30,828 nt of DNA. Source: a virus. The position numbers were made by a program, and so were the translations under genes. The DNA is taken from the IMG/VR virus record IMGVR_UViG_3300042691_023425, positions 1-30,828 of that record, one strand, 5' to 3'. This document shows positions 3,818 through 28,838 of the stretch, piece after piece (position 1 is the first letter of the stretch; each line of letters begins with the position of its first letter). The notes beneath the pieces are model-generated. The model saw only the letters and a program-made list of their open reading frames with translations. It did not search any database and was not told where the DNA came from.

Positions 3818-4276
3818 ATGGCAGAGGGTAGAACATACGGCATAAATTTTCCATTTAGAGATTCGTCTAAAGGTACTTACTTATCATTATCCGAAGATAG
3901 TGATGAAGAAATTAGGAGTAGTTTAGTACATTTACTTTTAACTAGAAAAGGTACAAGATATTATCTACCTGATTTTGGAACTAGATTATATGAATTTATT
4001 TTTGAGCCTATGGATGGTCCGACTTTTTCGGATATAGAGGCTGAAATTAGAGAATCCGTTGCTGAATATATACCTAATATTACAATTACAAATATAAGTA
4101 TTACAGACGCTTCTTTAGAAGAAGAGGATAAAGGTACATTTATAAATAGTAATGGACAAAGAGAATTTGTAGTACCTGGTATGGCCGAAAAAGAACATAC
4201 CGCAAAAATTAAAATTGATTATACTATCACTTCATCGGCATTTAATCCAAGTGATTTTGTAATTATTAATATATAA
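3818..4276 (+). CDS. Baseplate wedge subunit, gp25/GpW-like
   Basis: A 152-residue protein of the gp25/GpW family, which forms part of the baseplate wedge that joins the tail sheath in contractile tails and related injection systems. The family signature is visible at residues 26-64: 'EEIRSSLVHLLLTRKGTR' followed by LPDFGTRLYEFIFEP, with the conserved Pro-x-FG and final EP. The usual family length is about 130-150 residues. A later beta-rich section (about 85-150) contains a short acidic insertion (EEEDKG). It is the first gene of the plus-strand structural block, directly after a terminator and a candidate promoter, and 6 bases before the gp6-like gene, its normal structural partner. No Shine-Dalgarno sequence is present. 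Confidence 0.9.
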   Translation: MAEGRTYGINFPFRDSSKGTYLSLSEDSDEEIRSSLVHLLLTRKGTRYYLPDFGTRLYEFIFEPMDGPTFSDIEAEIRESVAEYIPNITITNISITDASLEEEDKGTFINSNGQREFVVPGMAEKEHTAKIKIDYTITSSAFNPSDFVIINI

Positions 4277-4282
4277 TAAATT

Positions 4283-6121
4283 ATGGCTAATAAAAAGATT
4301 TCATATACTACTAGAGACTTCCAACAGATAAGAACTGAGTTAATAAATTTCACAAGACTTTATTATCCCGAACTTATTGACAATTTTAACGACGCTTCAG
4401 TGTTTTCGGCATTATTAGATTTAAACGCCGCGGTAACAGACAACTTACATTTTAATATTGATAGAAGTATCCAAGAAACCGTACTACAATATGCACAACA
4501 AAGGTCATCAGTATTTAACATTGCTAGAACTTATGGACTTAAAGTGCCAGGTCAAAGACCTTCAGTTGCGTTAGTCGACTTTTCAATTACAGTACCCGCC
4601 TTTGGTGATAAAGAAGATTTAAGATATTGTGGTATCTTGAGAAGAGGTGCTCAAGTTAATGGTGCGGGACAAGTTTTTGAAACAGTATATGATATTGATT
4701 TTTCATCACCAATAAATGCCGAAGGATATCCGAACAGACTTAAAATACCTAATTTTGATTCAAATAATAAATTATTAAATTACACTATTGTAAAAAGGGA
4801 AACCGTAGTTAATGGGGTTACTAAAGTATTCAAAAGAACAATAACGGCAACAGATGTTAAACCTTTCTTTGAATTATTTTTACCTGAAAAAAATGTTTTA
4901 GGTGTTACAAGTGTTTTATTAAAAGACGGAACTCAATATGCTAATATACCATCACCACAAGAGTTTTTGGGTAATGATAATAGATGGTATGAAGTTAAGG
5001 CGTTAGTTGAAGATAGAGTTTTTGTTGAAGACCCTACTAAAGTTTCTGACCAACCAGGTATAAAAGTTGGTAAATATATCACAACAAGTAATAAATTTAT
5101 AACTGAATATACACCTGAAGGATTTTTAAAAATGACTTTTGGTGGTGGTAGTCAATCAGCAGACGAACAATTGAGAGAATTTGCAAGAAACGGATTAAAA
5201 TTAGATTTATATAAATATTCAAATAACTTTGCGTTAGGAAGTGTATTAAAACCAAATAGTACATTATTTGTACAATATAGAATTGGTGGGGGTGCTGGTA
5301 GTAATTTAGGTATTAACGTAATAACACAAATTGGTACTGTTTCTTTTTTTGTTAATGGTCCATCAGCATCTGTTAATACTAATGTAGTTAATTCTTTATC
5401 ATGTAATAATGTTACCGCCGCAATTGGAGGAGCTCCTTCACCAACAACTGAGGAGGTTAGAAATCTAGTAACATTCAACTTCTCAGCTCAAAACAGAGCG
5501 GTTACCGTTAACGACTACGATTCAATAATCAGAACCATGCCGTCTCAATTTGGTGCTCCTGCTAAAGTCGCTATTACTGAAGAAAATAATAAAATTAAAA
5601 TTAAAATGTTGTCATTTGACGAATCAGGTAATTTAACTGAAATAGTATCAAATACTCTTAAGAATAATATTGCTAATTATTTATCAAACTATAGAATGTT
5701 AAATGACTATATCTCAGTTGAAAGTGCTAATGTTATAGACTTATCAATGAACATTGACGTTGTGTTAGATAATAGTCAGACACAAGGTGCCTTAATTGCT
5801 CAAATAGTTAATTTAGTTACAGAATATTTTTCACCATCTAATAGACAAATGGGCAGTAATATTTATGTTTCAGAAATTAGACGACAAATACAATCACAAA
5901 ATGGTGTAATTTCAGTTTCCGACATTCAAGTGTTTAATAAAGTGGGTGGACAATATTCCTCATCACAAACATCACAAGGATATTTAGATGATGAAACAAA
6001 ACAAATAGGTTTAATTGATGACACAATATTCGCGGAACCAAGTCAAACATATCAAATCAGATATCCTAGCAAAGATATTAACGTAAGAATTAAAAACCTT
6101 TCCACCGTTAATTTTTCTTGA
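4283..6121 (+). CDS. Baseplate wedge subunit, gp6/baseplate-J-like
   Basis: A 612-residue protein of the T4 gp6/baseplate J family, the wedge component that dimerises to form the inner ring of the baseplate. Evidence: the N-terminus 'YTTRDFQQIRTELINF...YYPEL' with a helical section predicted for residues 40-90, and the characteristic SAQNRAVTVNDYDSI at 401-415, preceded by PSPTTEEVRN. A J-like alpha/beta section follows (about 420-540), containing NYLSNYRMLNDYISV. The neighbour upstream is the gp25-like gene, the usual pairing. It ends with TGA, the only TGA stop in the window, and is followed by a 73-base gap with a possible hairpin and a new TATTTAT element. The family call is strong; detailed domain boundaries were judged by eye. 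Confidence 0.88.
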   Translation: MANKKISYTTRDFQQIRTELINFTRLYYPELIDNFNDASVFSALLDLNAAVTDNLHFNIDRSIQETVLQYAQQRSSVFNIARTYGLKVPGQRPSVALVDFSITVPAFGDKEDLRYCGILRRGAQVNGAGQVFETVYDIDFSSPINAEGYPNRLKIPNFDSNNKLLNYTIVKRETVVNGVTKVFKRTITATDVKPFFELFLPEKNVLGVTSVLLKDGTQYANIPSPQEFLGNDNRWYEVKALVEDRVFVEDPTKVSDQPGIKVGKYITTSNKFITEYTPEGFLKMTFGGGSQSADEQLREFARNGLKLDLYKYSNNFALGSVLKPNSTLFVQYRIGGGAGSNLGINVITQIGTVSFFVNGPSASVNTNVVNSLSCNNVTAAIGGAPSPTTEEVRNLVTFNFSAQNRAVTVNDYDSIIRTMPSQFGAPAKVAITEENNKIKIKMLSFDESGNLTEIVSNTLKNNIANYLSNYRMLNDYISVESANVIDLSMNIDVVLDNSQTQGALIAQIVNLVTEYFSPSNRQMGSNIYVSEIRRQIQSQNGVISVSDIQVFNKVGGQYSSSQTSQGYLDDETKQIGLIDDTIFAEPSQTYQIRYPSKDINVRIKNLSTVNFS

Positions 6122-15061: not shown

Positions 15062-15967
15062 ATGGCAACAGGAACATACGGAACAATAAGACCAGCGGAT
15101 GTCTCACCTGAAGATGTTGAGATAATTTTAAATTATACACCATCAAGAGATGAAACAAATAACTTTGTGTTAACTAAACTTGACGCAAAAACTTTATTAA
15201 GACCTTATTTTAATAATAATAGTACTGGAGGGTCAACTGTGGAAGTTTTAGGCGGTCTTTATAATTTAACATTACCGTCAGACCAATTTAATAGATTGGG
15301 TATATATACTCTATATATAAGACCTGCACAAATTAGAACAACTATTTTAGATTGTGGTGTTTTATCATCATTACCTAATGTTAGAGGGTTAATTATTGAT
15401 TTAAATTCAGTACCTTCTGAATATAGAAATAAGTTTATTAATCAAGGATTAGTTGGATTTAGAATCGAATATTTAAATAACGATGGGTCCAAGATACCTA
15501 ATTTTTTTAGAATTATAACATCATCATTTTTTTGTGAACCAATAGTACAAAACTTGACAAATACATCACAAAAAGCTATTAGATATAGATATACGGAGAA
15601 TAATACTAATTTAATATTTTGTACATTATCACCATCATCAGCACCTACAAACAAACCTAACGCAATACCATTTATTGGACAACCAAACCAAAAAATTGTT
15701 ATATCAAATACTTTTTTTAATCCGATTACTTTAGACATTGAAGTTGCGGAACACGACTTCTCAACATTAGCAATTGCACTATTTGGTAATCAAACTAAAT
15801 CTATTGATGATGGTATATATACCATGTACGATACTCAAAATAACATTTATAGACAATATAACCTTTATGAAATTAGAGACCAATTTAATGAATTATTATT
15901 TGAGGTTAGACAAGATAGAGGTGATAATATTGATTTTAGTAAAAACTTTACAAATATAACACAATAA
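15062..15967 (+). CDS. Unknown structural protein (301 aa)
   Basis: No family was recognised. The N-terminus (TYGTIRPADVSPEDVEIILNYTPSRDETN) precedes a Gly/Asn-rich section and a region with strand-like patterns (GIYTLYIRPAQIRTTILDCG). No signal peptide or membrane segment is visible. It starts one base after the previous stop (TAATATG) and ends in a TAATG junction with the 1006-residue gene, so it is probably made in step with its neighbours and used in the same tail substructure. It could be an adaptor between the PKD protein and the larger adhesion proteins, but nothing in the sequence proves this. Confidence 0.66.
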   Translation: MATGTYGTIRPADVSPEDVEIILNYTPSRDETNNFVLTKLDAKTLLRPYFNNNSTGGSTVEVLGGLYNLTLPSDQFNRLGIYTLYIRPAQIRTTILDCGVLSSLPNVRGLIIDLNSVPSEYRNKFINQGLVGFRIEYLNNDGSKIPNFFRIITSSFFCEPIVQNLTNTSQKAIRYRYTENNTNLIFCTLSPSSAPTNKPNAIPFIGQPNQKIVISNTFFNPITLDIEVAEHDFSTLAIALFGNQTKSIDDGIYTMYDTQNNIYRQYNLYEIRDQFNELLFEVRQDRGDNIDFSKNFTNITQ

Positions 15968-18900
15968 TGGCGATTAAAAAATATACTTGTCCTCCACAGT
16001 CGGCAACAGGTGCTGGAACTTTTTCGGATGATTTAGTTGGTTTACAATTAGTCGCGGGAGGTGGTTTAACGCAAGGAAATTTTGAGTTTGTTACATCTGC
16101 AACTGAAAAAACCAATAGAAATTTTATTACAGGTATATTTTCAGACCCTATTAATTTAGAATCGATTGGAATTAATAGTATTGAACAATCTAAAGCAATT
16201 TTAGAAAGTAATTTTAAAGTTTACCCAAATTTTGATTTAACCCAAGTTAATAATTTTACTTTATACGGGTCGATGGTCAAAAGAATATCCGCATCTGTAA
16301 CTAAAATCATAAGTTATTTCCCTGCGGCTATAGAGTCTACTTTTATGGGTATTAATTATGTTACAGGAGTAACTGCCGATAATGTTGTTTATAGTCAATT
16401 AAATGATTCTACGACTTTTACATTAGACATTGCTAGACTTAGAAACCCATTTGATGTTGATTTTACAAACAACTCAACAAGAAATTTAGAACTAAAGGAA
16501 ATACAAGTATCTCCATTGAGAGATATGAAAATACAGTACGCTAAGTATTCTTTATTTATTAATAATAATGAATATAAAGTAATAAATATAATTCCTACAG
16601 ATAGTTTAACTAATGGTAATTTAAGTATAACTGTTAGTGGAGACGCTTTTTCAGGTCAAACTGTAATATTTGATAATTTAGTAATTAGACCAAATGACCT
16701 TGAAGTTAACAGAGTATTTAAGGAAGTTTTCGATGAGGTTGAACAATTCCTTTTGAATAGAAACATCACACCAAAGTATACATCAACCTTTAAAGTCCCA
16801 AGAGAGGCTGAAGACGGGTCATATTATGTTGAGGACCTTAATCTAACATGGCCATTATATGGTACATGGAATATTGATATTTTAACTAAAGCGTTTGAAA
16901 GTTATATTGTTTCTTTAAATGATGTTAGTGAATCTTTTGATGGGTATAAAACTAATTTAGTATCGAGATTTTTAACAACGGGAGCATTTAAAGAGTTCGA
17001 TACTATCGGTCAAAAAGTTGAAAAAGTATTACAAATATTTGGAAAAAGTTTCGATGATACAAAAAAATATATAACCGCATTGTCGTTTATGACATCTGTA
17101 AATTATAATGTAGGTAATGATATACCATCTCAGTTACTAAAAAATTTGGCTCAAACTTTAGGGTGGACTACTAATATGTCCCCAATATCCAACGAAGAAT
17201 TATTATCTTCAGTTTTTGGTACAACTAAACAAGATAAAAGTAATTTTACTGGTATATCACAACCACAAACGCCTGATGAATTAAATTATCAGTATTTTAG
17301 AAATTTAATTTTAAACTCGGCTTTTTTATTTAAATCTAAAGGCACCAGAAAATCTATTGAAATATTATTAAGATTAATTGGTGCTCCTGAAGCGTTAGTA
17401 GAATTTAATGAATATGTTTATTTGGCGGACCAAAAAATAAATTTATCACAGTTTAATGAGCAGTTTGTACAAATTTCAGGAGGTACTTATATTGAAAATA
17501 CACCAATATTAGACCCGACAGATGTTTATTCTATTTTCGGTAATTCATATACAGGATTTACAACAAGTGCAACAATCAAAGATGTTAATGTTACTATTGA
17601 TGACTATCCTATGGATGAATTTGGATATCCTTATTCACCACCTGATAGTGAAGACTATTTTTTCCAAAAAGGTAGTGGATGGTTTGAACAAACACCACAA
17701 CACAGAGCCCCTGAACAAGTTGATTTAACAAATAGTGTTTTTGTTGGTAATAATCCTAATTATCAAACTGTTTTATTACCATACTCATATGGTCAAGAAT
17801 ATCTAAATAGATTTAGAAAATTCCCATTCATGAATTTAGGTTATCAGTTAACACCTGTAGTCGATAATAATAAAAGTTGGGTGGATAATGAAGTGGGGCT
17901 TAGAACCAATCTTGATGGTAATATAAATGCTAGATATTTTGTCGAAGATGATAGATTAGTTCTTAACGTTAAAAATGTTGATTTATTTTTAAATCCCGCA
18001 CAAGGACTTCTTTATGATGTATGGACTATGTCAAGAGAATTTAATTACCCAATACCTAACCAAGGATTAAATTATGTTCCACCAACATATTGTAATCCTA
18101 AACCTTATAGCCCATATCCTGGTAGAGGAGGTGTTGATTGGACTGAAATAGTCCCTTTACCAAAAAGAAAAACATTTTTTGAGTTTGCTCAAACATTTTG
18201 GCAAAACATGATTAATGTTAGAAACAGACAATATGCTACTAACGGAAAAACAGGAGGGTACCCCACATTAGATTCAATTTATTGGAGGTACTTAGAGTCT
18301 CAACAAACAATTAATATACCTAACGATAACTTTACGTATAAAACAATGATGGATTACGTAAATGGTTTAGGGGATTATTGGATTAGATTAGTTGAACAAA
18401 TGATACCCGCAACAACTATATGGAATACGGGAATTAAACTTGAAAATTCAATTTTCCACAGACAAAAATTTGTTTGGAGAAGACAAGAAGGTTGCCAATT
18501 AATACCAACCCCATGTAAACCATGTTCGTTAATTAGTAATATATTTACTTATGATTGTCCAATTGAAAGTGTTGAATGTTCGATATACCCTTGGACTAAT
18601 AATCCACAAATTCAGAGTTTAAATGCTGTTTTAGGTAAAACATTAGAGTCTTATTTAACAAATAACGGATACACATTAAATGATTGCGATTTTAATGGGA
18701 TGTCAACCCAATGGTTTGTTGATATAAGAGTTGACGATACTGTTGTTGTTAGTTATCCATTTTTTAACGGTGTTGGTTATAGTAGTCCTACTTATAGCTC
18801 ACCGACAACCGAAATGTGGGATACCGCATTAGAAAATGCTTTAGAGAGTTTAAAAGATTACGGATTTGATTATTATTTAACAGAAGAAGAAACTGTTATT

Positions 18901-18987
18901 GTTTACAATCAAGTATGTTCAGTTTCTGAACAAGGAATCAATTTTAAATTGAATATAGGAATAAACTTTGAAATATTATGTAATTAA
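15967..18987 (+). CDS. Large tail/baseplate protein (1006 aa) with a C-terminal domain shared with the next gene
   Basis: The main family is not recognised. At about residues 454-474 the stretch LFKSKGTRKSIEILLRLIGAP resembles in pattern the GT-x-[AK]-x-I-x-x-L-x-x-x-G segment of contractile-tail protein I and related baseplate proteins, which fits the position after gp25/gp6 genes but is weak evidence. A later section (about 725-840) is Trp/Tyr-rich (FAQTFWQNMINVRNRQY, IYWRYLESQ, FVWRRQEGC). A Cys-rich hinge follows (PCKPCSLI...YDCP...VECS). The last ~90 residues (915-1006) align by eye with residues 618-708 of the next protein. Start and stop both form TAATG junctions. Confidence 0.7.
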   Translation: MAIKKYTCPPQSATGAGTFSDDLVGLQLVAGGGLTQGNFEFVTSATEKTNRNFITGIFSDPINLESIGINSIEQSKAILESNFKVYPNFDLTQVNNFTLYGSMVKRISASVTKIISYFPAAIESTFMGINYVTGVTADNVVYSQLNDSTTFTLDIARLRNPFDVDFTNNSTRNLELKEIQVSPLRDMKIQYAKYSLFINNNEYKVINIIPTDSLTNGNLSITVSGDAFSGQTVIFDNLVIRPNDLEVNRVFKEVFDEVEQFLLNRNITPKYTSTFKVPREAEDGSYYVEDLNLTWPLYGTWNIDILTKAFESYIVSLNDVSESFDGYKTNLVSRFLTTGAFKEFDTIGQKVEKVLQIFGKSFDDTKKYITALSFMTSVNYNVGNDIPSQLLKNLAQTLGWTTNMSPISNEELLSSVFGTTKQDKSNFTGISQPQTPDELNYQYFRNLILNSAFLFKSKGTRKSIEILLRLIGAPEALVEFNEYVYLADQKINLSQFNEQFVQISGGTYIENTPILDPTDVYSIFGNSYTGFTTSATIKDVNVTIDDYPMDEFGYPYSPPDSEDYFFQKGSGWFEQTPQHRAPEQVDLTNSVFVGNNPNYQTVLLPYSYGQEYLNRFRKFPFMNLGYQLTPVVDNNKSWVDNEVGLRTNLDGNINARYFVEDDRLVLNVKNVDLFLNPAQGLLYDVWTMSREFNYPIPNQGLNYVPPTYCNPKPYSPYPGRGGVDWTEIVPLPKRKTFFEFAQTFWQNMINVRNRQYATNGKTGGYPTLDSIYWRYLESQQTINIPNDNFTYKTMMDYVNGLGDYWIRLVEQMIPATTIWNTGIKLENSIFHRQKFVWRRQEGCQLIPTPCKPCSLISNIFTYDCPIESVECSIYPWTNNPQIQSLNAVLGKTLESYLTNNGYTLNDCDFNGMSTQWFVDIRVDDTVVVSYPFFNGVGYSSPTYSSPTTEMWDTALENALESLKDYGFDYYLTEEETVIVYNQVCSVSEQGINFKLNIGINFEILCN

Positions 18988-21900
18988 TGTCTTGTCAATT
19001 AAGTGCAACAATTGGGGGATTAACAGGTGATTGTAGTAACACACAATCGGGAGCCTTTACTATAGATATACTTAATGGTGCCCCTGGTTACACTGTAAAT
19101 TGGATTTATCCACCATTTGGTAGTTTCCCTGTTACAGGTGACTTTACCGTAACTAATTTATCTGCGGGCACATATTCATTTACTATCACGGATTCTTGTG
19201 TGCCTGATAATGAAACGGTAACCGTCAATGTTAACATTTCTTCAGGAACTTGTGTTAGTTTGACAGGAGTTCAGAACACGTCTTGCGGTTTAAATAATGG
19301 TGGGTTAACTGCAACAACCACTAATTTTTACGGTACAGGTAAATTTTATCTTTACGAAACAACCGAAGGATACATTACTTCCGCAAGTACAATTAACAAT
19401 TTTTGTACGTTTGATAATTTAGATGATGGTATATATTATGTGATTGCTGATGATGGAGGAGGATGTACAGGAAAAACCGAGACATGTATCATATTAGACT
19501 CAAATGAAATAAGTGTTGATTTATTTGTGGTTAAAGCCTCATCGTGTTCACCAAATACAGGGGCAATTTATGTTACAGGAGTTACAGGTACACCACCATT
19601 TTCTTATTCATGGAATACAACACCTGTTCAAACAACAACATCAATAACAGGGTTGACACCTGGTAATTATATATTAACAGTAACCGATTCAACAGGGTGT
19701 GTAACTAGTAAAGGAACTGTTTTAACAACGGACCCACCTTTAGGTTTATTGGACATTTCTTTTACAAATCCAACATGTTTTTCTTCCGATGGAACGGTAA
19801 CAATAACCGCATCAGGAGGAACCGCACCATTTCAATATGTAGGTTCTAATGGATATATTGACACCACATTTAATGCGACCAACACATTTTTTAATGTGCC
19901 TGCAGGACCATTTACAATAATTGTTAAAGATGCGGGTAATTGTAGTTTTACCGCAACTACTACATTATTAACACCAGGCGGGTTGGGGGTTACGTCAGTC
20001 AATGTTACTAATTCAACGTGTAGTGGTAATGGAGGTCAAATATCTGTAAATATTTTTGGAGGTTCACCACCTTATGTTTATACATTAACTAATTCATTAG
20101 GTCAAAATACTGTAGTTAATGGAAATTTTACCAATTGGTCATTTAACGGGTTATCATCGGATACGTATACTTTAACAATATCAGATGAAGGACCATGTGA
20201 CTTTGTTAACACATATGTTGTAGATAATAATGAATTATTTGAATTAACTATAGAAACAACAGGGACTACTTGCGGTCAAGAAGACGGTTCGGTTTTATTA
20301 TCAATTACACCAGGAGGGACTCCACCATTCCACTATGAAATTGATGGGTATTCTGATTTCTCAAATAATTTAACATTCTTATACGAAAACTTATCAAGTG
20401 GTAATTACGTAGCAACAGTTACAGACGCTAATTTCTGTCAACAACAATTACCATTCACAATATCTGATTCAGGTAATGTAGATTTTTTATTAATAGGAAC
20501 GGATTCATTGAATGGTGATAATGGTACGATAAGTGCTTTAATAACTGACGGTACACCACCTTTTGTTTTAACTTGGAGCTCAAACGTAGGAGGTCAAACA
20601 GGGACTGAAGTGAATAACCTAAGTGCAGGAACTTATACATTAACGGTTGTTGATGATAACGGATGTTCAAAAACAAGAACAATCACATTAAATGGGTTTA
20701 ATAAATTAACATCATACGAAGTTTATAATATTTGTGATGAAGACTTTTTTAATACAGGTCAAACAGGTAGAAAAGGACCCCAAGAAATGTTAATTGAAGG
20801 ATTTCATGATTTAACTATTGGAGATACTAATTGTATTCTAAATAAAGCGATTTTCACAGTTGTTACCACAGTTAATAATGTTGTAAAAACACAATCATTC
20901 TATACAGGTACGACATTAACAGATTTCCCATCTGACAATGAATTTTACGATGTTGTTGAAGAATTATTATTAACTTATGGAGTAATTGGTGAAGTTTTGA
21001 TAGATGCGGTTAAAAATACTTTAACGGTTAATAGTGGTTGTGACGTTACAATTGAAACTTTAGATGCAACTGTAAAAGTGGAGTTAGATATATCTTATGA
21101 TATTAGTTGTGAAACCTGTGATGATTTCTGTAATTGTTTTGAAGTTTCAGGACCTAAAGGATGTGTGGTTTCATATACAAATTGTGATGGAAATAGAAGC
21201 TCAATAGCTTTATCGGGCACCGAAAACGAAAGAATATGTGGTAGAGAAATTTTAGGTAGTGAATGTGAAGAATGTACAACACCTTTAGATTATTTGTTTA
21301 AAATTGCTACAACATTATACAAATTAAATTTACCACCTGCAGGACTAATGGGGGCCGAAGCAGAAGAATCTGAAACATTTTCTGATATTATTAATTTAAT
21401 TTTAGTTAGAGGTTTGGTAATAACAAATGCTTCTGAAAGGATATGTTGTAGCGAATGTGGAATTGACGATTTTACTAATTTTTACATGTTATCGGATATT
21501 AAAATCGCTCAAAATCTTTATGTTGAAAATTACGGACAACCAAATTGTTGTAATAACTATAGTGGTAATACAACAGTTTATAATGAATTTGTTGAAGCTA
21601 TGGAAATAACCTTTGGGGATGCGCCTGAACAATGTGAAAGTAATTTTATAAATTGTTTAGAAAATTTAAAAAATTTGGTGGGGGTAGTATTTTTTGACAC
21701 TTTAATGTTTTCAGGAATTGTAGAAAACCCATTAAATACTACCCAAACATTACTTTGTTCTTTAGTAAATCAATTAGAAATTTTAGTTGATGAATACGGA
21801 TTAACTCAATCCGATTGTTATGATATAGTTTACACTTTATTATCTAAAGGTTTCTTTTCTATGTGTAAAAATGATACTGTCTTTATAGGTGGTTCTGATA

Positions 21901-22655
21901 ATTTTTATACTTTTTATGAAAGAGTTGAATCATTAGTTTTACCTTCGGCAGAATGTCCTGGTGTTATAATAGAAGAAATTGGACAATGTATATCAGAAGT
22001 GTGCCCAACAAGCACCGCTTGTACAAGCCCTATGGAATACTTATTTAGTATCATTCCTTTACCCGAAGAAGGAATGTTTGGAGCGGAAATTACTGAATCG
22101 GCAGAAGTTTATATTGAACAAATGTTGGCAATATTGAAAGACGGTATTATATTAGATATTGAACAAGAAACATTTAGTTTTTGTTGCCCTGATGGGTGTG
22201 TTTTTCCTAGTGAATCTGGGTCATTTGGTATAAACTATTATTTTTTAGGTACTCTTAGAGCTTTTGATACTCTTGTAGAAAGTAAAGAGGGTATAGGATT
22301 TCCACAATGTTGTATAAATCATTTTTTTGGTATTGAAGAATATGTCTCATATATTAATGATTTTAATATTGGTAATATAAATTTACCTATAGCGTGTTGT
22401 AATAGTTTTGAACCGTGTTCTGAAAATCTTATTGATAAGTATTTTTTGGGTAGAGGAGCAATTGAAGTTTCTAAAATAAATGGGTATTCAGAATTGTGTA
22501 ATTTAATAACTTCAGTAGATACATTACCATTTAACGATTTAGAAAAATCTGAAATTATTAATTCCTTATTTAATACTGGATTTAATGTATGGTGTTTTGG
22601 GAATCAAATATTAATCAGTAATACGACTAAATTTTTAGAATTAATTAATGGATAA
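18987..22655 (+). CDS. Modular adhesin-like tail protein: about seven SprB-type repeats plus duplicated Cys-rich domains (1222 aa)
   Basis: Residues about 13-570 hold some seven Ig-like repeats of ~75 residues. Each follows the pattern 'C..N.G.I...' then GGTPPF-Y-W, then NLSAGTY-TVTD-GC, as in the SprB repeats of the Flavobacterium gliding adhesin; clear copies include 183-250, 420-492 and 497-570. Residues 618-708 match the C-terminus of the preceding protein. Residues 763-985 and 1012-1222 are two diverged copies of one Cys-rich domain, with matching C, CC, CC, C-x6-C, C and C positions. About 33 cysteines lie between residues 708 and 1222. No signal peptide, membrane segment or type IX secretion tail was seen. 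It is the last gene of the plus-strand block and probably forms a host-contacting part of the tail; a metal-bound or disulfide-bonded C-terminal half is possible. Confidence 0.78.
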   Translation: MSCQLSATIGGLTGDCSNTQSGAFTIDILNGAPGYTVNWIYPPFGSFPVTGDFTVTNLSAGTYSFTITDSCVPDNETVTVNVNISSGTCVSLTGVQNTSCGLNNGGLTATTTNFYGTGKFYLYETTEGYITSASTINNFCTFDNLDDGIYYVIADDGGGCTGKTETCIILDSNEISVDLFVVKASSCSPNTGAIYVTGVTGTPPFSYSWNTTPVQTTTSITGLTPGNYILTVTDSTGCVTSKGTVLTTDPPLGLLDISFTNPTCFSSDGTVTITASGGTAPFQYVGSNGYIDTTFNATNTFFNVPAGPFTIIVKDAGNCSFTATTTLLTPGGLGVTSVNVTNSTCSGNGGQISVNIFGGSPPYVYTLTNSLGQNTVVNGNFTNWSFNGLSSDTYTLTISDEGPCDFVNTYVVDNNELFELTIETTGTTCGQEDGSVLLSITPGGTPPFHYEIDGYSDFSNNLTFLYENLSSGNYVATVTDANFCQQQLPFTISDSGNVDFLLIGTDSLNGDNGTISALITDGTPPFVLTWSSNVGGQTGTEVNNLSAGTYTLTVVDDNGCSKTRTITLNGFNKLTSYEVYNICDEDFFNTGQTGRKGPQEMLIEGFHDLTIGDTNCILNKAIFTVVTTVNNVVKTQSFYTGTTLTDFPSDNEFYDVVEELLLTYGVIGEVLIDAVKNTLTVNSGCDVTIETLDATVKVELDISYDISCETCDDFCNCFEVSGPKGCVVSYTNCDGNRSSIALSGTENERICGREILGSECEECTTPLDYLFKIATTLYKLNLPPAGLMGAEAEESETFSDIINLILVRGLVITNASERICCSECGIDDFTNFYMLSDIKIAQNLYVENYGQPNCCNNYSGNTTVYNEFVEAMEITFGDAPEQCESNFINCLENLKNLVGVVFFDTLMFSGIVENPLNTTQTLLCSLVNQLEILVDEYGLTQSDCYDIVYTLLSKGFFSMCKNDTVFIGGSDNFYTFYERVESLVLPSAECPGVIIEEIGQCISEVCPTSTACTSPMEYLFSIIPLPEEGMFGAEITESAEVYIEQMLAILKDGIILDIEQETFSFCCPDGCVFPSESGSFGINYYFLGTLRAFDTLVESKEGIGFPQCCINHFFGIEEYVSYINDFNIGNINLPIACCNSFEPCSENLIDKYFLGRGAIEVSKINGYSELCNLITSVDTLPFNDLEKSEIINSLFNTGFNVWCFGNQILISNTTKFLELING

Positions 22656-22684: not shown

Positions 22685-22690
22685 AATTTT

Positions 22691-22708
22691 ATCGTTAAAT
22701 TAAACGAT
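22691..22708 (-). terminator. Small second hairpin beside the convergent terminator
   Basis: ATCGTT (22691-22696) and AACGAT (22703-22708) form a 6-bp stem with a 6-base loop directly after the stop of the resolvase gene on the minus strand. On its own it is too weak to call a terminator, but leftward transcripts meet it just before the 26-base palindrome, so it may form part of a tandem termination site. Confidence 0.35.
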
Positions 22709-22709
22709 A

Positions 22710-23309
22710 TTACCAAATTTGTTCTTGATTCATATAACCTAACACACAACAATATGCGTCAGTCATATCAAAGTTTTCTTTTTTAAGGGTATTGTTTTTA
22801 GTGTATGACCAAGTAATTTGAGGTTCTCGTTTTGCAACTAAATCCCATATAATTTGTTTTTTATCACAATCTTTTGGTTGACCACCAAACAACACAAACT
22901 TACCTTTGTCATTTTGTTGTACTAAATTAGGAAAGGCAAATTTTCTTGAGTTATAAGTTGAGATATATTCAGGAACAATACCTAAAACATCATAAATTTC
23001 TTTAGTGATTAAAGTGTTATATCTCATAAGAGTTTGAATAGTATAAACATTGTTACTATTCATTAAAGGTTCTTCAATTATAACCTTGGTAATACCTAAA
23101 TTTTTATATTGAACAAGTTTACTTCTAAAAATTTCACTTTTTAGTATTAACTCTTTAATTTTATTATCTTGCTTAGGTTTAGGGACAGGAGAAACATGGG
23201 TGAGTTCTAACAACTCTTTAGTCTCAATTTCAAATAACGCCCAACCAATAGTTTTAGTAGAAACGTCCAACCCCAATACCTTTGGAGTACTCTCAATAGA
23301 TTTTTTCAT
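22710..23309 (-). CDS. RuvC-like Holliday junction resolvase / RNase H-fold nuclease (199 aa)
   Basis: The protein has the RNase H-fold nuclease pattern: strand 1 VLGLDVSTKTIGWALFE with D15, a second acidic site VIIEEPL (E79/E80) after a strand, and a C-terminal helix DMTDAYCCVLGY with D181/D184. These fit the catalytic acidic residues of RuvC-type resolvases found in bacteria, poxviruses and some phages. The protein would cleave four-way junctions so branched phage DNA can be packaged. T4 itself uses endonuclease VII (gp49), which is unrelated. It starts one base after the stop of the upstream tail gene (TAATATG on the minus strand) and is the last gene of the leftward block. RuvC-like is well supported as a fold; junction resolution is inferred. 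Confidence 0.78.
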   Translation of the reverse strand: MKKSIESTPKVLGLDVSTKTIGWALFEIETKELLELTHVSPVPKPKQDNKIKELILKSEIFRSKLVQYKNLGITKVIIEEPLMNSNNVYTIQTLMRYNTLITKEIYDVLGIVPEYISTYNSRKFAFPNLVQQNDKGKFVLFGGQPKDCDKKQIIWDLVAKREPQITWSYTKNNTLKKENFDMTDAYCCVLGYMNQEQIW

Positions 23310-23310
23310 A

Positions 23311-25839
23311 TTAGATATCGAATTTAATCAAAAACTGCTGAATACCTTGTCTTAATACAGGTGACTGCATTTTTGATATAATCATAAGATTTTTGTTAGA
23401 ATCGTAAAGACCAATTTCACTAACATATGATGGTTTACCTTGAGTCCATGTTGGATTAGATGGTGATTGAAATTCTACCTGACTTAAATTTATTTTATAC
23501 CTCATTTCATAAATTGTTGCTTGAATGTCAGTTTCTAATGAACCATAGAAATAATATTCATCACCAAAATTTAATGTGGTACCAGTATCACCAACAGGCG
23601 TTAAAGGAATGTAGTTATCTAAATTATATGTTGGTGAGTTTTCATATAAGTCATCTGTAATTACAAAAGTAGTACTTGTTAAAGATTCTTCAGTTATATA
23701 TCCATTAACTAATAAATTTGAAATTTGGTCTGTAAAGTCAATGATTTTCCATTCAGAAGAGTTAGGCCTTCCTGTACCGTCAACTTTTTGACAGATAATC
23801 TCAAATTTATCAGCGTAAAATCCTGAAACTACATCACAACCTATAGGACAAGTTGTTGTGCTTGTTGTTATTGGGTCAAAAGTTGTTGTACTTGTTGTTA
23901 TTGGGTCAAAAGTTGTTGTGGTTGTTATAGGACTATATTCAGGTCTTAAACAAGGAAACTCAGCACCAAATCTAACCGCAACATTTTGGGAAGGTTGAGG
24001 GTTACATTCGATGTTAGGTCCTTGCATTACTGTGTAATAATTACAATGTAACGAATTTGTAAATATGTCACTATTACTTAATCTATAAGTAACGTGCATG
24101 TATTGAGACGAACCTGTTAAAACACCTGTAACTGAATTACTATCAGTACCACAAGTATTAGGTGTTACTAATGATGTTTTAGGCGCTGGTAAAGTCCAAT
24201 TTCGGTTTGCCTTATATGACATTGCAGCAACAATCTCTTCGTCATCAATTATTAGTAATTTAGAGTCAGGGAAAACTTTACCAATTCTGTTAGGTAGATT
24301 ATTTGTATTTCTATGAGTATCCCATAAATGATAGTACCTAATACCAGGGGAATTCATATCACTATTTTTAGTTGATTGAATATATTGAACTTTAAACAAC
24401 TCAAGGTCCTCAAACTCGGGAGGGTCAACCCAAAATGTTTCACCTAAACAACATTCAGGATTTTTATGCCACATTAACCAAGGAATGTGTAGTTTAAAAT
24501 TTCTTGCTTGTCCTGTCGTATCCGCAGGGTTTGAAACATCAAAAGGCTCAAGAGCAAATTTTTCACCATAGAAGAAATCAATTGTTTGATTTGTGTAATG
24601 AATTATTGCAATCGCCTTTTGTTCTTCAGGTGTTACTATCACTTTATCACCTAAAGAATCGTAGTGATAGGATGAACTAGTGTCAGTCTGACCACTACTT
24701 GATGCGTAACCAAAATATTCTTTTGACCCAAGATATTGTCTTGAACCAAAGTTAGTATAATCCTTATTAATTGATGAGAAGAGACCCGCAGGACTCTCAG
24801 ACCACGGAATATTCATATTCCAAACCTTAACATCAAACTCATCAGTATAACATACTGATTCATAATTAATAACATTATCTCTCCAATGAGGACGAGGAGT
24901 TATTGAATCATAAATCGTTTGCATATTTGGAGGATATACAATCATCCTTGCATAACACTCTGATGATATATTTGAAAAATCAGGTGTTGGTCTATCTAAT
25001 GTATATTCACCTAAACATATTGAAGTAATTCTATAAGTTAACATAGAATAACAACTACTAATAGGAACTAAACAATCTGGCGGTGGAGGCGGTGGACACG
25101 CTCTACTTGGAGTAGGTGTCGGACAAAATGTTGCCGATGGAGTTGGAGTAGGAGTTGGGGGTTCACAACTAAAAGTTGCTGATGGTGTTGGTGTAGGGGT
25201 AGGTGTTAATGTATTGTTACTTGAAGTAATACTTGGAGTTACTGTCATTGTTGGAGTTGGAGAAGGTGTTGGAACATTTACACAATTACCATTAATTAAA
25301 CCTTTACCATCATAAAAAATAGTCACAATATCACCAACTGAGGGTTCTCTTACTGTAACACCGTAATTAGATACCACAGGGGTTATTACTTTAGAACCAT
25401 TTAAAGAATTCATTTTAACAACATAGTTGGAATTAATCGCGTAAAAATTATTAGTTAATGCGCTCCAATTTATTGTTGTTGCGGTGGTATCACCTGTAAA
25501 AAAACCTCTCATAACCGCTCTGTTATAAACAGGGCTGACTATAGAATCCATAAAAGGAATACCATATGTATTCCCCGCAGACCCATCTACGTAATATGGG
25601 TATTTAATATTTTCTTTATTTGATTGTGGAGACCCACTCGAATTTTGAGCATTAAAATTTGGCTCAAGAATCATCGTATCAAATTGATTATAGGACACTG
25701 GTAATGTGTTATATGAAACTTCACTATCACCTATTTGAAAATAAGAAATATTAAAATTACCTTGTGATAATTTTTGTCTTCCTGTGTCGGTTAATCTTGT
25801 GTTTATTAACCCTGATGTATTTTTAATAATGTATCCCAT
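23311..25839 (-). CDS. Modular tail-fibre/adhesin protein with Pro/Thr linkers (842 aa)
   Basis: Residues 1-45 (TRLTDTGRQKLSQGNFNISY, then FQIGDSEVSYN) and 805-842 (VSEIGLYDSNKNLMIIS, then LRQGIQQFLIKFD) resemble the beginning and end of a phage tail-collar fibre domain, where 'LT..G...L..G....' and 'EIGLYD..G.L' are usual. Between them lie a linker at 188-250 (PTPSPTPT, TPTPTPTPSATF repeated, then PPPPPP), a Cys-containing globular region (250-630), a second linker at 636-664 made of a duplicated TTTFDPITTS unit, and a further domain. The arrangement suggests a fibre scaffold that has accepted inserted domains. A TATTTAT element lies 5 bases upstream of its ATG. The sequence is in frame throughout. 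Function is inferred as host adhesion. Confidence 0.72.
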   Translation of the reverse strand: MGYIIKNTSGLINTRLTDTGRQKLSQGNFNISYFQIGDSEVSYNTLPVSYNQFDTMILEPNFNAQNSSGSPQSNKENIKYPYYVDGSAGNTYGIPFMDSIVSPVYNRAVMRGFFTGDTTATTINWSALTNNFYAINSNYVVKMNSLNGSKVITPVVSNYGVTVREPSVGDIVTIFYDGKGLINGNCVNVPTPSPTPTMTVTPSITSSNNTLTPTPTPTPSATFSCEPPTPTPTPSATFCPTPTPSRACPPPPPPDCLVPISSCYSMLTYRITSICLGEYTLDRPTPDFSNISSECYARMIVYPPNMQTIYDSITPRPHWRDNVINYESVCYTDEFDVKVWNMNIPWSESPAGLFSSINKDYTNFGSRQYLGSKEYFGYASSSGQTDTSSSYHYDSLGDKVIVTPEEQKAIAIIHYTNQTIDFFYGEKFALEPFDVSNPADTTGQARNFKLHIPWLMWHKNPECCLGETFWVDPPEFEDLELFKVQYIQSTKNSDMNSPGIRYYHLWDTHRNTNNLPNRIGKVFPDSKLLIIDDEEIVAAMSYKANRNWTLPAPKTSLVTPNTCGTDSNSVTGVLTGSSQYMHVTYRLSNSDIFTNSLHCNYYTVMQGPNIECNPQPSQNVAVRFGAEFPCLRPEYSPITTTTTFDPITTSTTTFDPITTSTTTCPIGCDVVSGFYADKFEIICQKVDGTGRPNSSEWKIIDFTDQISNLLVNGYITEESLTSTTFVITDDLYENSPTYNLDNYIPLTPVGDTGTTLNFGDEYYFYGSLETDIQATIYEMRYKINLSQVEFQSPSNPTWTQGKPSYVSEIGLYDSNKNLMIISKMQSPVLRQGIQQFLIKFDI
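23851..23926. repeat. 30-bp tandem repeat, about 2.5 copies
   Basis: Positions 23851-23880 and 23881-23910 are identical except for one base, and a partial third copy follows from 23911. The unit begins AGTTGTTGTG and ends ATTGGGTCAAA. On the minus strand it encodes the ten-residue unit TTTFDPITTS inside the 842-residue tail protein. The length is a multiple of three, so copy number could change without a frameshift. Confidence 0.9.
25090..25278. repeat. Low-complexity GGTGTT-type tract encoding a Pro/Thr linker
   Basis: Plus strand shows repeated GGAGTTGGAGT/GGTGTTGGTGTAGG hexamer-like units, which encode PTPTPT and TPSATF on the minus strand within the 842-residue gene. Two near copies of TPTPTPSATF are visible. 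Confidence 0.75.
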
Positions 25840-25844
25840 TGATT

Positions 25845-25851
25845 ATAAATA
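25845..25851 (-). promoter_or_regulatory. TATTTAT element 5 nt before the 842-residue gene
   Basis: On the minus strand TATTTAT is followed by AATCA and then the ATG at 25839. It sits in the 26-base gap after the stop of the upstream gene. Spacing is identical to the elements before the genes at 3818, 28851 and 27782. Function as a promoter or a translation signal is inferred. Confidence 0.45.
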
Positions 25852-25865
25852 TTCTTATTTAATTT

Positions 25866-27782
25866 TTATGACGTAATTACTGAACAACAACTACAACCAG
25901 TAATTTTTAAATTTGATAAACTATACGTTTCATTACTTGTGCCTACATAACAATCTATAAATTCATTTCTTGTAACTGTTGTTATTGTAGTAATTTTAAA
26001 AACATTTGTGTTGTTAATAGTTATTGAATTCCATGATTCAGTTAAAGATGTTAACCATACATTATTAGATTGACAACCCGCAACTGTATTTATTATACTA
26101 TCATTGGTTATTGAACTTGTTGATGGTTCTATAACAATGTCATCTATTGTTAATGAAGTAATTGTCTCAGAAGATGATGAATCTTCATTTGGTGATGATT
26201 TAGATAAATTTAAGTGATTTAAGTTAAACGTTAATAAAACACCATCAGGTAATTCGGGTGTTACAGATAATGTGGTAATATATTCTTTAGATAATGTTGT
26301 GTTATTCGCCTCTAAAGTTTTAGGCAATGTAACTAGTTTTACATTATATGTTACAGGTTGTGAAGGTGGGTTCAGAATAACCGTGTTATTAACAGTTCTA
26401 CCACTAATATCGCTAATAATTACGTTATATGTACCTGAACATAGATTACTAAACATTGGTATATTTCTATATGTCAACCCTCCATTTATTGAGTATGAAT
26501 ATGGTGGGTCACCACCATTGGCTTTAATTGTTAAACCACCATCACAACCACATATTGTTTGATTTTTTGTGATTAAGGTAGTTAATGGTTGTACACCTTC
26601 TTCAGACATGGTTGAATAACGATTACCAAAAATACCTACTAATGGCTCACAAGGACCTTCATAAACTATAATACTTCCTGTACCACCAATAATAAACCAA
26701 CTACCATAGATTGGTGGGTATGTTGGATTTGTGTTAAATATGGTATAAGTGGTTGGAGTTGACGCAGAAACTTTCCATTGAGATAAAGAAGAATCCCAAT
26801 ATATAGATTGAGTTGAATCGTTAGATATCCAAGAAGGTCGAGAATTGAATAAACCGTTTGGTGTGAAATTTGTACGAGTCTCTACGTAACTACCACCTTT
26901 ACTAAGTATATTGGTAACTAAACATAAATCATATGTTAAATATGGAGAAGTCGGTGTTGGAGTTGGTGTAGGTGAAGGAGTTGGTGTTGAACCTGTTAAA
27001 GTACATTTAGTTGTTGCCGTAAAATCACCATAAGAGTCAATTACAGTTGCTTCGTAAATCCCTGCACTTAAATTATAAATTACGGGTGAAATATTACCAT
27101 TATTCCAAGAAATATAATAAGGAGGAGTACCACCTGTAATTGTTAATGAAATTGAACCATCTGACGATAACGGAGAAGGATGAGTAAGATTACACTCAAC
27201 ACCCATCGGAAATAAAGTGATTGGGTCACATTCATTAATAAATTTAGGGATTATTGGTTTTGATAAAGGGGTAGGTGTTGGTGTAGGTGTCGGAGTATGC
27301 GTTGGTGTTGGTGTAGGTGTCGGAGTTACACAAGGTCGACTTAATAAACATTCTGAACATGACTCGCCTTTATAACTATCTAATGGGAATTTAAATAAAC
27401 TAATAGGTTGTAATCCCGTAGTATCACCACCTTCATTATAGGTTAAACAAATATCACTACTACCTGAGTATAAAATACCATCAGTTGTTATAAAAAAACC
27501 AACACTAAATACAAATGGAAACCCTGGGTCATCTAAATAAAGAATACCTGAGAATCCACCACAACAATTATCAAACTTTAAATTTGACGGACTAAAACTA
27601 GGAAACTCGTCAATTTTTAAACCAATGGATGGTGGAGGTGGGTTTGTGGTGTCCGCAAAACAAACATAATCGGTGTTAAGTTCGGGTGTGAAAGTAATAG
27701 TACTCCCATTACAATCAACAAATGAGTAAGATGTTGGAATAGAGGGAGACCCAAAACTTAAATTATACTGTGAACAAGCCAT
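25866..27782 (-). CDS. Mosaic adhesin-like tail protein with two SprB-type repeats and two Pro/Thr linkers (638 aa)
   Basis: Domains in order: an N-terminal Cys-containing beta domain (1-150) ending in CSECLLSRPC; linker 151-177 (PTPTPTPTHTPTPTPTPTP); a SprB-like repeat at about 194-264 (ITGGTPPYYISWNNG, then NLSAGIYEATVIDS); a second linker 264-280; a Trp-rich domain at about 281-378 (NGLFNSRPSWIS, IYWDSSLSQWKVS); a second SprB-like repeat at about 401-473 (KANGGDPPYSYSINGG, then LCSGTYNVIISD); and a Ser/Thr/Asn-rich C-terminus ending CSCCSVITS. No signal peptide or membrane segment is present. The glycosyltransferase-like gene lies 15 bases upstream. It probably is a host-binding appendage protein. 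The Trp-rich domain might bind sugar, but it was not identified. Confidence 0.72.
   Translation of the reverse strand: MACSQYNLSFGSPSIPTSYSFVDCNGSTITFTPELNTDYVCFADTTNPPPPSIGLKIDEFPSFSPSNLKFDNCCGGFSGILYLDDPGFPFVFSVGFFITTDGILYSGSSDICLTYNEGGDTTGLQPISLFKFPLDSYKGESCSECLLSRPCVTPTPTPTPTHTPTPTPTPTPLSKPIIPKFINECDPITLFPMGVECNLTHPSPLSSDGSISLTITGGTPPYYISWNNGNISPVIYNLSAGIYEATVIDSYGDFTATTKCTLTGSTPTPSPTPTPTPTSPYLTYDLCLVTNILSKGGSYVETRTNFTPNGLFNSRPSWISNDSTQSIYWDSSLSQWKVSASTPTTYTIFNTNPTYPPIYGSWFIIGGTGSIIVYEGPCEPLVGIFGNRYSTMSEEGVQPLTTLITKNQTICGCDGGLTIKANGGDPPYSYSINGGLTYRNIPMFSNLCSGTYNVIISDISGRTVNNTVILNPPSQPVTYNVKLVTLPKTLEANNTTLSKEYITTLSVTPELPDGVLLTFNLNHLNLSKSSPNEDSSSSETITSLTIDDIVIEPSTSSITNDSIINTVAGCQSNNVWLTSLTESWNSITINNTNVFKITTITTVTRNEFIDCYVGTSNETYSLSNLKITGCSCCSVITS
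26943..26993. repeat. GGTGTTGGAGT-type tract encoding the second linker of the 638-residue protein
   Basis: The plus-strand sequence (GTCGGTGTTGGAGTTGGTGT and following) is a short run of near-hexamer repeats encoding TPTPSPTPTPTPT on the minus strand. Confidence 0.7.
27252..27332. repeat. Duplicated GGTGTTGGTGTAGGTGTCGG unit encoding a Pro/Thr linker
   Basis: The 23-base unit that starts GGTGTTGGTGTAGGTGTCGG occurs at 27274-27296 and again at 27304-27326, 30 bases apart. On the minus strand it encodes TPTPTPTP separated by THTP in the 638-residue gene. A similar tract occurs at 30608-30685 in another gene. Confidence 0.8.
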
Positions 27783-27787
27783 TTATA

Positions 27788-27794
27788 ATAAATA
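27788..27794 (-). promoter_or_regulatory. TATTTAT element 5 nt before the 638-residue gene
   Basis: On the minus strand TATTTAT is followed by TATAA and then the ATG at 27782. It lies in the 15-base gap after the stop of the glycosyltransferase-like gene. Same spacing as three other genes of the window. Confidence 0.42.
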
Positions 27795-27797
27795 CAA

Positions 27798-28778
27798 TTA
27801 TTGTTGAAATTTTATTACTCTTTTCATAATATCGATGTATTTTCTAGTTGCACTACTTTCCTCGATATACTCAAAAAAATTATCATCTGATTTTAATTTT
27901 TCTAATGGATTCACATTTATGTAATCACCTTTGTAAAATTTTTTATCTTTTAAATCTTGAGTGACACCTGCCATATGTAGTATAGGCCTTTTTTCATATG
28001 TTTTAATATCATCAGTTGCCCAAGAAAAACTTAAATCGTCAACCACTTTAGTTTCTAAACCAAAATACCAAAGGTTCCAAAGTAATGACCACATTTCGGC
28101 AGTCCAAAATTGTATTTCACCTGGACTTATCGGGTATCTTTTTTGGAAATCTAACATTTGGTCGTATAAAGGAGCACAATCATAATATATTTTAAACCAT
28201 AATTCCCATGGTGTGTTTTTTATTATATATTGACCACCACCTGAGTTAGGTTGGTTCTTTTTAACCTCATTAGTAGTTATACCTATAACATCAACCATTT
28301 CTTGTAAAAGTTGATTTTTTTCACAATTAGGATGTTGATTTTCGTATCTATCACAACAACTAACAATGTAATCATAACCTATATAACCAATGGTATCTGA
28401 AAGATATATTATATCATCACTAAGTAGTTTATCAAAATCAGGAAGTTCTCTAAATATAATGTCAGCATCATGTAAGAAAAAACACCTACCAAATTCAGGA
28501 TTTTGCTCCAACCATTTATAAACTAAAAAAGGTTTTATACTTGGTATATAATGTTTTCTTTGTCTATCATCTAAATAATGGTGAATATTAATACCTAATT
28601 CTTTAAGTTTTAAAGAATCTTCAGTAGGTTCTGTGTTACCTTGAACCATACCAAATATTACATGAATTTTACTTGGGTTGATACCTAAATCAACAAAGTT
28701 TTGTGTGTATACTCTTACTTGCCAATGAAAATATGGAACATCAGGTTGTGCCGTTACAAATACTAATTTTTCCTTCAT
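27798..28778 (-). CDS. Glycosyltransferase-like protein, GT-A type (326 aa)
   Basis: The pattern fits a GT-A fold enzyme of the kind related to peptidyl serine/hydroxyproline galactosyltransferases: strand 1 LVFVTAQPDVPYFHWQVRVY, a middle section with IKPFLVYKWLEQ, a DxD-type metal site FLHDADIIF (D104-A-D106), NSGGGQYIIKN (178-188), an acidic pocket AEMWSLLWNL (227-236) and a late ILHMAG (266-271) whose His often completes the metal site. It would transfer a sugar from a nucleotide sugar to an acceptor that cannot be named from the sequence. It lies between a fibre gene and two Pro/Thr-linker adhesin genes, so virion proteins are plausible acceptors (inference). It is intracellular in appearance, with no signal peptide. 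Family assignment is by motif only. Confidence 0.58.
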   Translation of the reverse strand: MKEKLVFVTAQPDVPYFHWQVRVYTQNFVDLGINPSKIHVIFGMVQGNTEPTEDSLKLKELGINIHHYLDDRQRKHYIPSIKPFLVYKWLEQNPEFGRCFFLHDADIIFRELPDFDKLLSDDIIYLSDTIGYIGYDYIVSCCDRYENQHPNCEKNQLLQEMVDVIGITTNEVKKNQPNSGGGQYIIKNTPWELWFKIYYDCAPLYDQMLDFQKRYPISPGEIQFWTAEMWSLLWNLWYFGLETKVVDDLSFSWATDDIKTYEKRPILHMAGVTQDLKDKKFYKGDYINVNPLEKLKSDDNFFEYIEESSATRKYIDIMKRVIKFQQ

Positions 28779-28838
28779 AATACTATTTGAAATTAAATAT
28801 AGATAACAATCATTTGTAATAAATGCTATTTTGGGTAA

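Follow-up and report, generated by a model that had tools for sequence, protein, structure and literature searches.

The SprB repeat is most familiar as a building block of a gliding adhesin of bacteria. SprB of Flavobacterium johnsoniae is a protein of 6497 aa that is secreted by the T9SS and has a type B C-terminal domain, and the number of SprB repeats differs between bacteria (PMC9950754). Among viral proteins, A0A6J5LD72 of BFVD/UniProt (714 aa), named 'SprB repeat [uncultured Caudovirales phage]', was the closest structural match to the protein analyzed here and matched over its full length (724 columns, E 4e-63, 34% identity). A0A6J5LD72 is evidently a member of the same family, which has thereby entered the databases under an automatic name; no paper describing the seven-repeat family or the function of A0A6J5LD72 was found in the literature searched.

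The DNA analyzed in this study is a linear virus record of 30,828 bases, referred to below as the window. An ORF on its plus strand (18987-22655) encodes a protein of 1222 aa, in which seven SprB-type repeats are followed by an alpha/beta module and a variable cysteine-rich tip. Related phages share the repeats and the module, and their tips are exchanged.

The seven-repeat array and its genomic setting

The 1222-aa protein as a whole matched the Pfam SprB model (PF13573) with an E value of 4.7e-14 and 52.2 bits, exceeding the curated gathering cut-off of 28. By position, five of the seven repeats (repeats 3-7) were matched, two of them (repeats 4 and 5) above the cut-off. A profile constructed only from bacterial SprB repeats detected exactly seven repeats (260.6 bits; aa 15-81, 93-169, 184-247, 257-330, 337-414, 420-494, and 509-569), and the top score among 1000 shuffles of the same residues was 5.9 bits. 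The members of this profile were recruited via viral repeats, and the Pfam model is the independent test. The array occupies aa 7-569. Repeat 1 (aa 7-88; 19005-19250) is diverged and repeat 2 (aa 89-175; 19251-19511) is the most diverged; both were delimited by the bacterial profile and the structural model described below. Repeat 3 (aa 176-253; 19512-19745) was delimited by these two and by a PF13573 match at 19539-19619. Repeats 4 (aa 254-334; 19746-19988), 5 (aa 335-417; 19989-20237), 6 (aa 418-497; 20238-20477), and 7 (aa 498-569; 20478-20693) were each detected by the bacterial profile and by PF13573, the latter at 19758-19850, 19998-20096, 20253-20345, and 20511-20588, respectively.

An AlphaFold2 model based on 44 relatives contained seven beta-sandwiches with a mean pLDDT of 83.5, followed by a linker and an alpha/beta domain. 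The array is thus predicted to adopt a tandem beta-sandwich (Ig-like) fold. The initial annotation had placed about seven SprB-type repeats at residues 13-570 and had suggested a Pfam search and a structure prediction. The Pfam score and the seven matches of the bacterial profile bear out the repeats, their limits were accurate to within a few residues, and the tandem Ig-like sandwiches were indeed predicted. In each of repeats 2 to 6 (19251-20477), one early and one late cysteine are invariant in all 44 aligned cores, and an early and a late cysteine were present in 1518 of 1540 bacterial SprB repeats. These cysteines may form a disulfide in each domain of this cytoplasmically made protein.

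Repeat 1 starts right at the N-terminus, and a classical anchor domain is absent. The protein starts with MSCQLSATIGGLTGDC, in which neither a hydrophobic stretch nor a signal-peptide-like segment was recognized by eye. As for a C-terminal T9SS sorting domain, no match to TIGR04131 was obtained, and the match to TIGR04183, located within repeat 3 and away from the C-terminus, was below the cut-off. The positive controls, proteins of LR756502 and L209, were detected in this search.

On the same strand, the array gene is preceded by genes for both chains of ribonucleotide reductase (RNR), a gp25-family baseplate wedge protein (3818-4276; Pfam GPW_gp25, E 8e-13, and PHROGs), a gp6/J-family baseplate wedge protein (4283-6121; Pfam Baseplate_J; PHROGs, E 6e-26; baseplate wedge of Flavobacterium phage immuto), five unassigned proteins, and a conserved protein of 1006 aa (15967-18987). 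The initial annotation correctly recognized that the repeat gene closes a phage baseplate/tail operon; the gene ends the run opened by gp25 and gp6/J. The nearest relatives of RNR are found in Cellulophaga and Tenacibaculum phages, and a Flavobacterium phage was among the best matches of gp6; together with the repeats, they suggest that the host is probably a member of the Bacteroidota. A contractile tail sheath is encoded by seven of the eight long related records. A cultured counterpart of the downstream genes was sought in Flavobacterium phage immuto and in LR756508, and gp6 alone was shared in this comparison, which used a partial gp6 profile and left out gp25 and the RNR small chain.

After the repeat gene, the minus strand encodes a RuvC-like resolvase, an 842-aa protein with PT-rich linkers, a 638-aa protein, a 326-aa protein belonging to an unnamed PHROG, and smaller ORFs. 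The 638-aa protein (25866-27782) is a second SprB-repeat protein with two repeats and PT-rich linkers (PF13573, E 3e-11; bacterial SprB profile); the initial annotation saw the repeats of the 1222-aa protein and missed this one. Further repeat-bearing ORFs were present in 94 of 153 related loci. Approximately 500 bases at the 5' end of the 638-aa gene (27283-27782) are missing from L012, a relative with 83% DNA identity. The block encoding the RuvC-like, 842-aa, 638-aa, and 326-aa proteins (22686-28825) is in the flipped orientation in L013 and similar relatives, and no clear inverted repeat was found flanking it. A site-specific inversion switch for a tip or fiber block was considered and rejected, since the inverted repeats were weak (arms of 14-35 nt with 73-94% identity) and formed no convincing pair.

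Conserved core and exchangeable tips

When viral contigs were scanned with the 1006-aa neighbor, 182 relatives were obtained, of which 80 were kept; a scan with the core of the repeat protein gave more than 500 relatives, of which 80 were also kept, the two sets overlapping in part. In approximately 150 uncultured viral loci, a core of approximately 711 aa, composed of seven predicted beta-sandwiches and a virus-specific alpha/beta module, was found directly downstream of the 1006-aa gene, always with seven repeats. The repeat number was seven and the repeat length was near-constant in all 65 non-redundant cores. Conversely, the 1006-aa gene was present in all 80 core-seeded loci, and the one-base overlap of its stop with the start of the repeat gene, seen in the window, was conserved in 66 of them. 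Profile searches of the 1006-aa protein against PDB and PHROGs gave no convincing known relative. The initial annotation had identified the array but not the longer conserved core, reaching to aa 711, to which it belongs.

The virus-specific module (aa 570-711; 20694-21119) consists in the models of a linker, of low confidence at aa 572-593, and an alpha/beta domain at aa 594-711. One full copy of the module was present in each of eight long related viral records (86 to 322 kb), whereas a search of 395 Bacteroidota genomes did not detect it. The same module also forms the C-terminal end of the 1006-aa protein (18600-18987, corresponding to 20766-21119 in the repeat gene), as indicated by hhalign (probability 94%, E 8.6e-8, one comparison) and by hmmsearch in family members (E down to 6e-9). 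In one long record, a partial match to the module was located in a 1064-aa frame immediately upstream. When a phage tail nozzle/sheath-type fold was considered for the alpha/beta domain, its top six structural neighbors were phage tail proteins, but these matches were weak (Z of 5.5 or less; best Foldseek E 0.2), and the likeness could be a common arrangement. No significant match of the module to PDB was obtained by sequence.

The tip of the window protein (aa 712-1222; 21120-22652) contains 31 cysteines in 511 aa and an internal duplication of approximately 30% identity, and it matched no Pfam family. Among 140 complete proteins, a total that includes some viruses repeatedly through redundant contigs, 60 end with the core or within 12 aa of it and 80 extend for 44-788 aa; the tips of the latter, 57 of them distinct, fall into 15 sequence clusters. 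Other tips showed weak matches to beta-propellers and a weak match of Hint type, and those at L025 15178-17199 and L096 12131-14494 are made of repeats of DUF285, a family named from Mycoplasma proteins.

A close pair of relatives allowed the boundary of the exchange to be mapped. The DNA of the window and that of L012 are 83% identical up to position 21121, the end of the core, and the identity resumes from 22581. Between these positions, the DNA is unrelated, with 1459 bases (to 22580) in the window and 786 bases in L012. L012 retains the final 23 codons of the tip type seen in the window, with 91% identity, at and beyond the end of its own reading frame. The tips of the window and L012 thus represent a clean cassette exchange, in which close relatives combine a conserved shaft with unrelated C-terminal tips.

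History of the repeats

In the initial annotation, it was suggested that the virus had adopted the surface-adhesin module of its own host. The repeats of the 65 cores do not agree with this suggestion. For all 455 repeats, the nearest match was the repeat at the same position in another virus, and when same-position matches were set aside, bacterial repeats and other viral positions scored alike. When 94 repeats were placed in a tree, those of each position formed one clade among the bacterial repeats with 97-100% bootstrap (six of the seven clades starred). The best bacterial arrays, nearly all from Bacteroidota, were only approximately 28-35% identical to the viral array. These results rule out a recent acquisition of the array from the host. 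The same-position matches and the single clade per position also indicate that the array predates the divergence of the virus family and has been inherited in register. Judging from the repeat sequences, the array is ancient, and its repeat number was fixed before the family diverged.

PF13573 matches were present in 50 of 198 sampled Bacteroidota genomes and in none of 14 controls, and an ancient origin of the array in the Bacteroidota pool is plausible. The deep order of the positions relative to the bacterial repeats was not resolved in the tree (77 columns), with which an array derived from one bacterial repeat or from several would be compatible.

A different case was found among 50,697 phage records, of which LR756502.1 alone, a 642-kb uncultured huge phage, had a significant match to the array. 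The matching protein of 1670 aa has more than 10 SprB repeats, a signal-peptide-like start, and a T9SS type B sorting domain, and lacks the alpha/beta module; its region, LR756502.1 514378-519387, is the same as L090 13861-18870. These features mark it as a host-type secreted adhesin outside the seven-repeat family, and its gene lies outside any recognized tail operon. A SprB-repeat match in a viral contig is therefore not in itself a sign of a captured host adhesin: the array in the family of the window is old, fixed, and viral, in contrast to the adhesin carried by LR756502.

Proposed role and comparison with known systems

With moderate confidence, we propose that the 1222-aa protein belongs to the adsorption apparatus of contractile-tailed phages whose hosts are probably Bacteroidota, and that it bears swappable tips on a fixed seven-sandwich stalk. 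The protein would be a baseplate-proximal fiber or whisker anchored at one end, and its seven SprB-type Ig-like sandwiches would form a stalk of fixed length. The alpha/beta module, held in common with the 1006-aa neighbor, probably docks or oligomerizes the protein in the virion. Contact with the host surface is probably made by the C-terminal tip, which some members lack and which related phages exchange as a cassette. For a widespread, uncultured group of contractile-tailed phages probably infecting Bacteroidota, this conserved protein is a candidate for adsorption whose boundary of tip exchange has been mapped, and it is a place to seek host-range determinants.

Since 43% of the complete proteins are tipless, the receptor may be bound by the repeats or by a different protein. 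The binding surface might be the seven repeats themselves: as an adhesive rod of Ig-like domains, they would adhere weakly to polysaccharides on the host or in its biofilm, with the tip as an accessory. Phage Ig-like proteins, once displayed, can confer adhesion (PMC13370021), and the closest solved structure to the viral protein was GhpA (PDB 9flp and others; fold E 9e-19, profile E 2e-12), the grappling-hook protein of Aureispira, which is likewise built of tandem sandwiches and belongs to a bacterial surface appendage. Nevertheless, the fixed number and position-specific conservation of the repeats throughout the family are the pattern expected of a structural rod, and no recognizable binding domain was found within the seven repeats. 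An adhesive rod is an unlikely alternative.

Less probable still is a decoration or neck-whisker (fibritin-like) protein located on the head or neck. The core profile matched the phage decoration proteins 5lxk and 8zvi and the neck whisker 9occ, which are Ig-like sandwiches (E 6e-6 to 4e-5), and the C-terminal domain of T4 fibritin is also swapped (PMC3797505). However, matches to single Ig-like domains inform on fold more than on place, and the repeat gene ends a baseplate run and is coupled to the 1006-aa gene, whose product has the C-terminal module in common with it.

The initial annotation had further envisaged that the repeats bind the same surface as the host adhesin, mimic it, or make contact with the SprB track as it moves. 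The repeat family is homologous, and gliding and T9SS proteins of Bacteroidota affect phage adsorption, with SprB as a possible receptor (PMC13288928). On that basis, it might be speculated that the SprB-homologous stalk engages the gliding/T9SS surface machinery of the host during adsorption and that the tips are tuned to strain-specific receptors, so that the homology would be functional beyond a shared spacer fold; we regard this as a long shot. Display of the repeats for mimicry or track riding seems slightly more doubtful even than that, because identity to bacterial repeats is low, no position is nearest to a bacterial repeat, the T9SS sorting domain is absent, variation lies in the C-terminal tip and not in the repeats, and no sign of host matching was seen. 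Similarly improbable is an early or secreted, non-virion protein whose gene closes the tail operon by chance, for which the secreted adhesin of LR756502.1 is a precedent, given that no signal-peptide-like N-terminus was recognized by eye, that the sorting domain is absent, and that the coupling to the tail operon is constant.

The 5lxk, 8zvi, and 9occ matches are single domains, whereas the viral protein combines a seven-repeat SprB array with an alpha/beta module. T4 fibritin resembles it in being a conserved protein with an exchanged C-terminal part; sequence and shaft are unrelated, and the likeness is an analogy only. With GhpA, only the repeated domain is comparable, since whole-chain superposition was poor (rmsd above 60 Å) and uninformative on the arrangement; GhpA is a bacterial appendage protein of 5898 aa with 16-17% identity. 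SprB of F. johnsoniae belongs to the same repeat family, PF13573. Unlike SprB, the viral protein has no T9SS domain, holds its repeats at a fixed number of seven, and is encoded by a gene of a tail operon.
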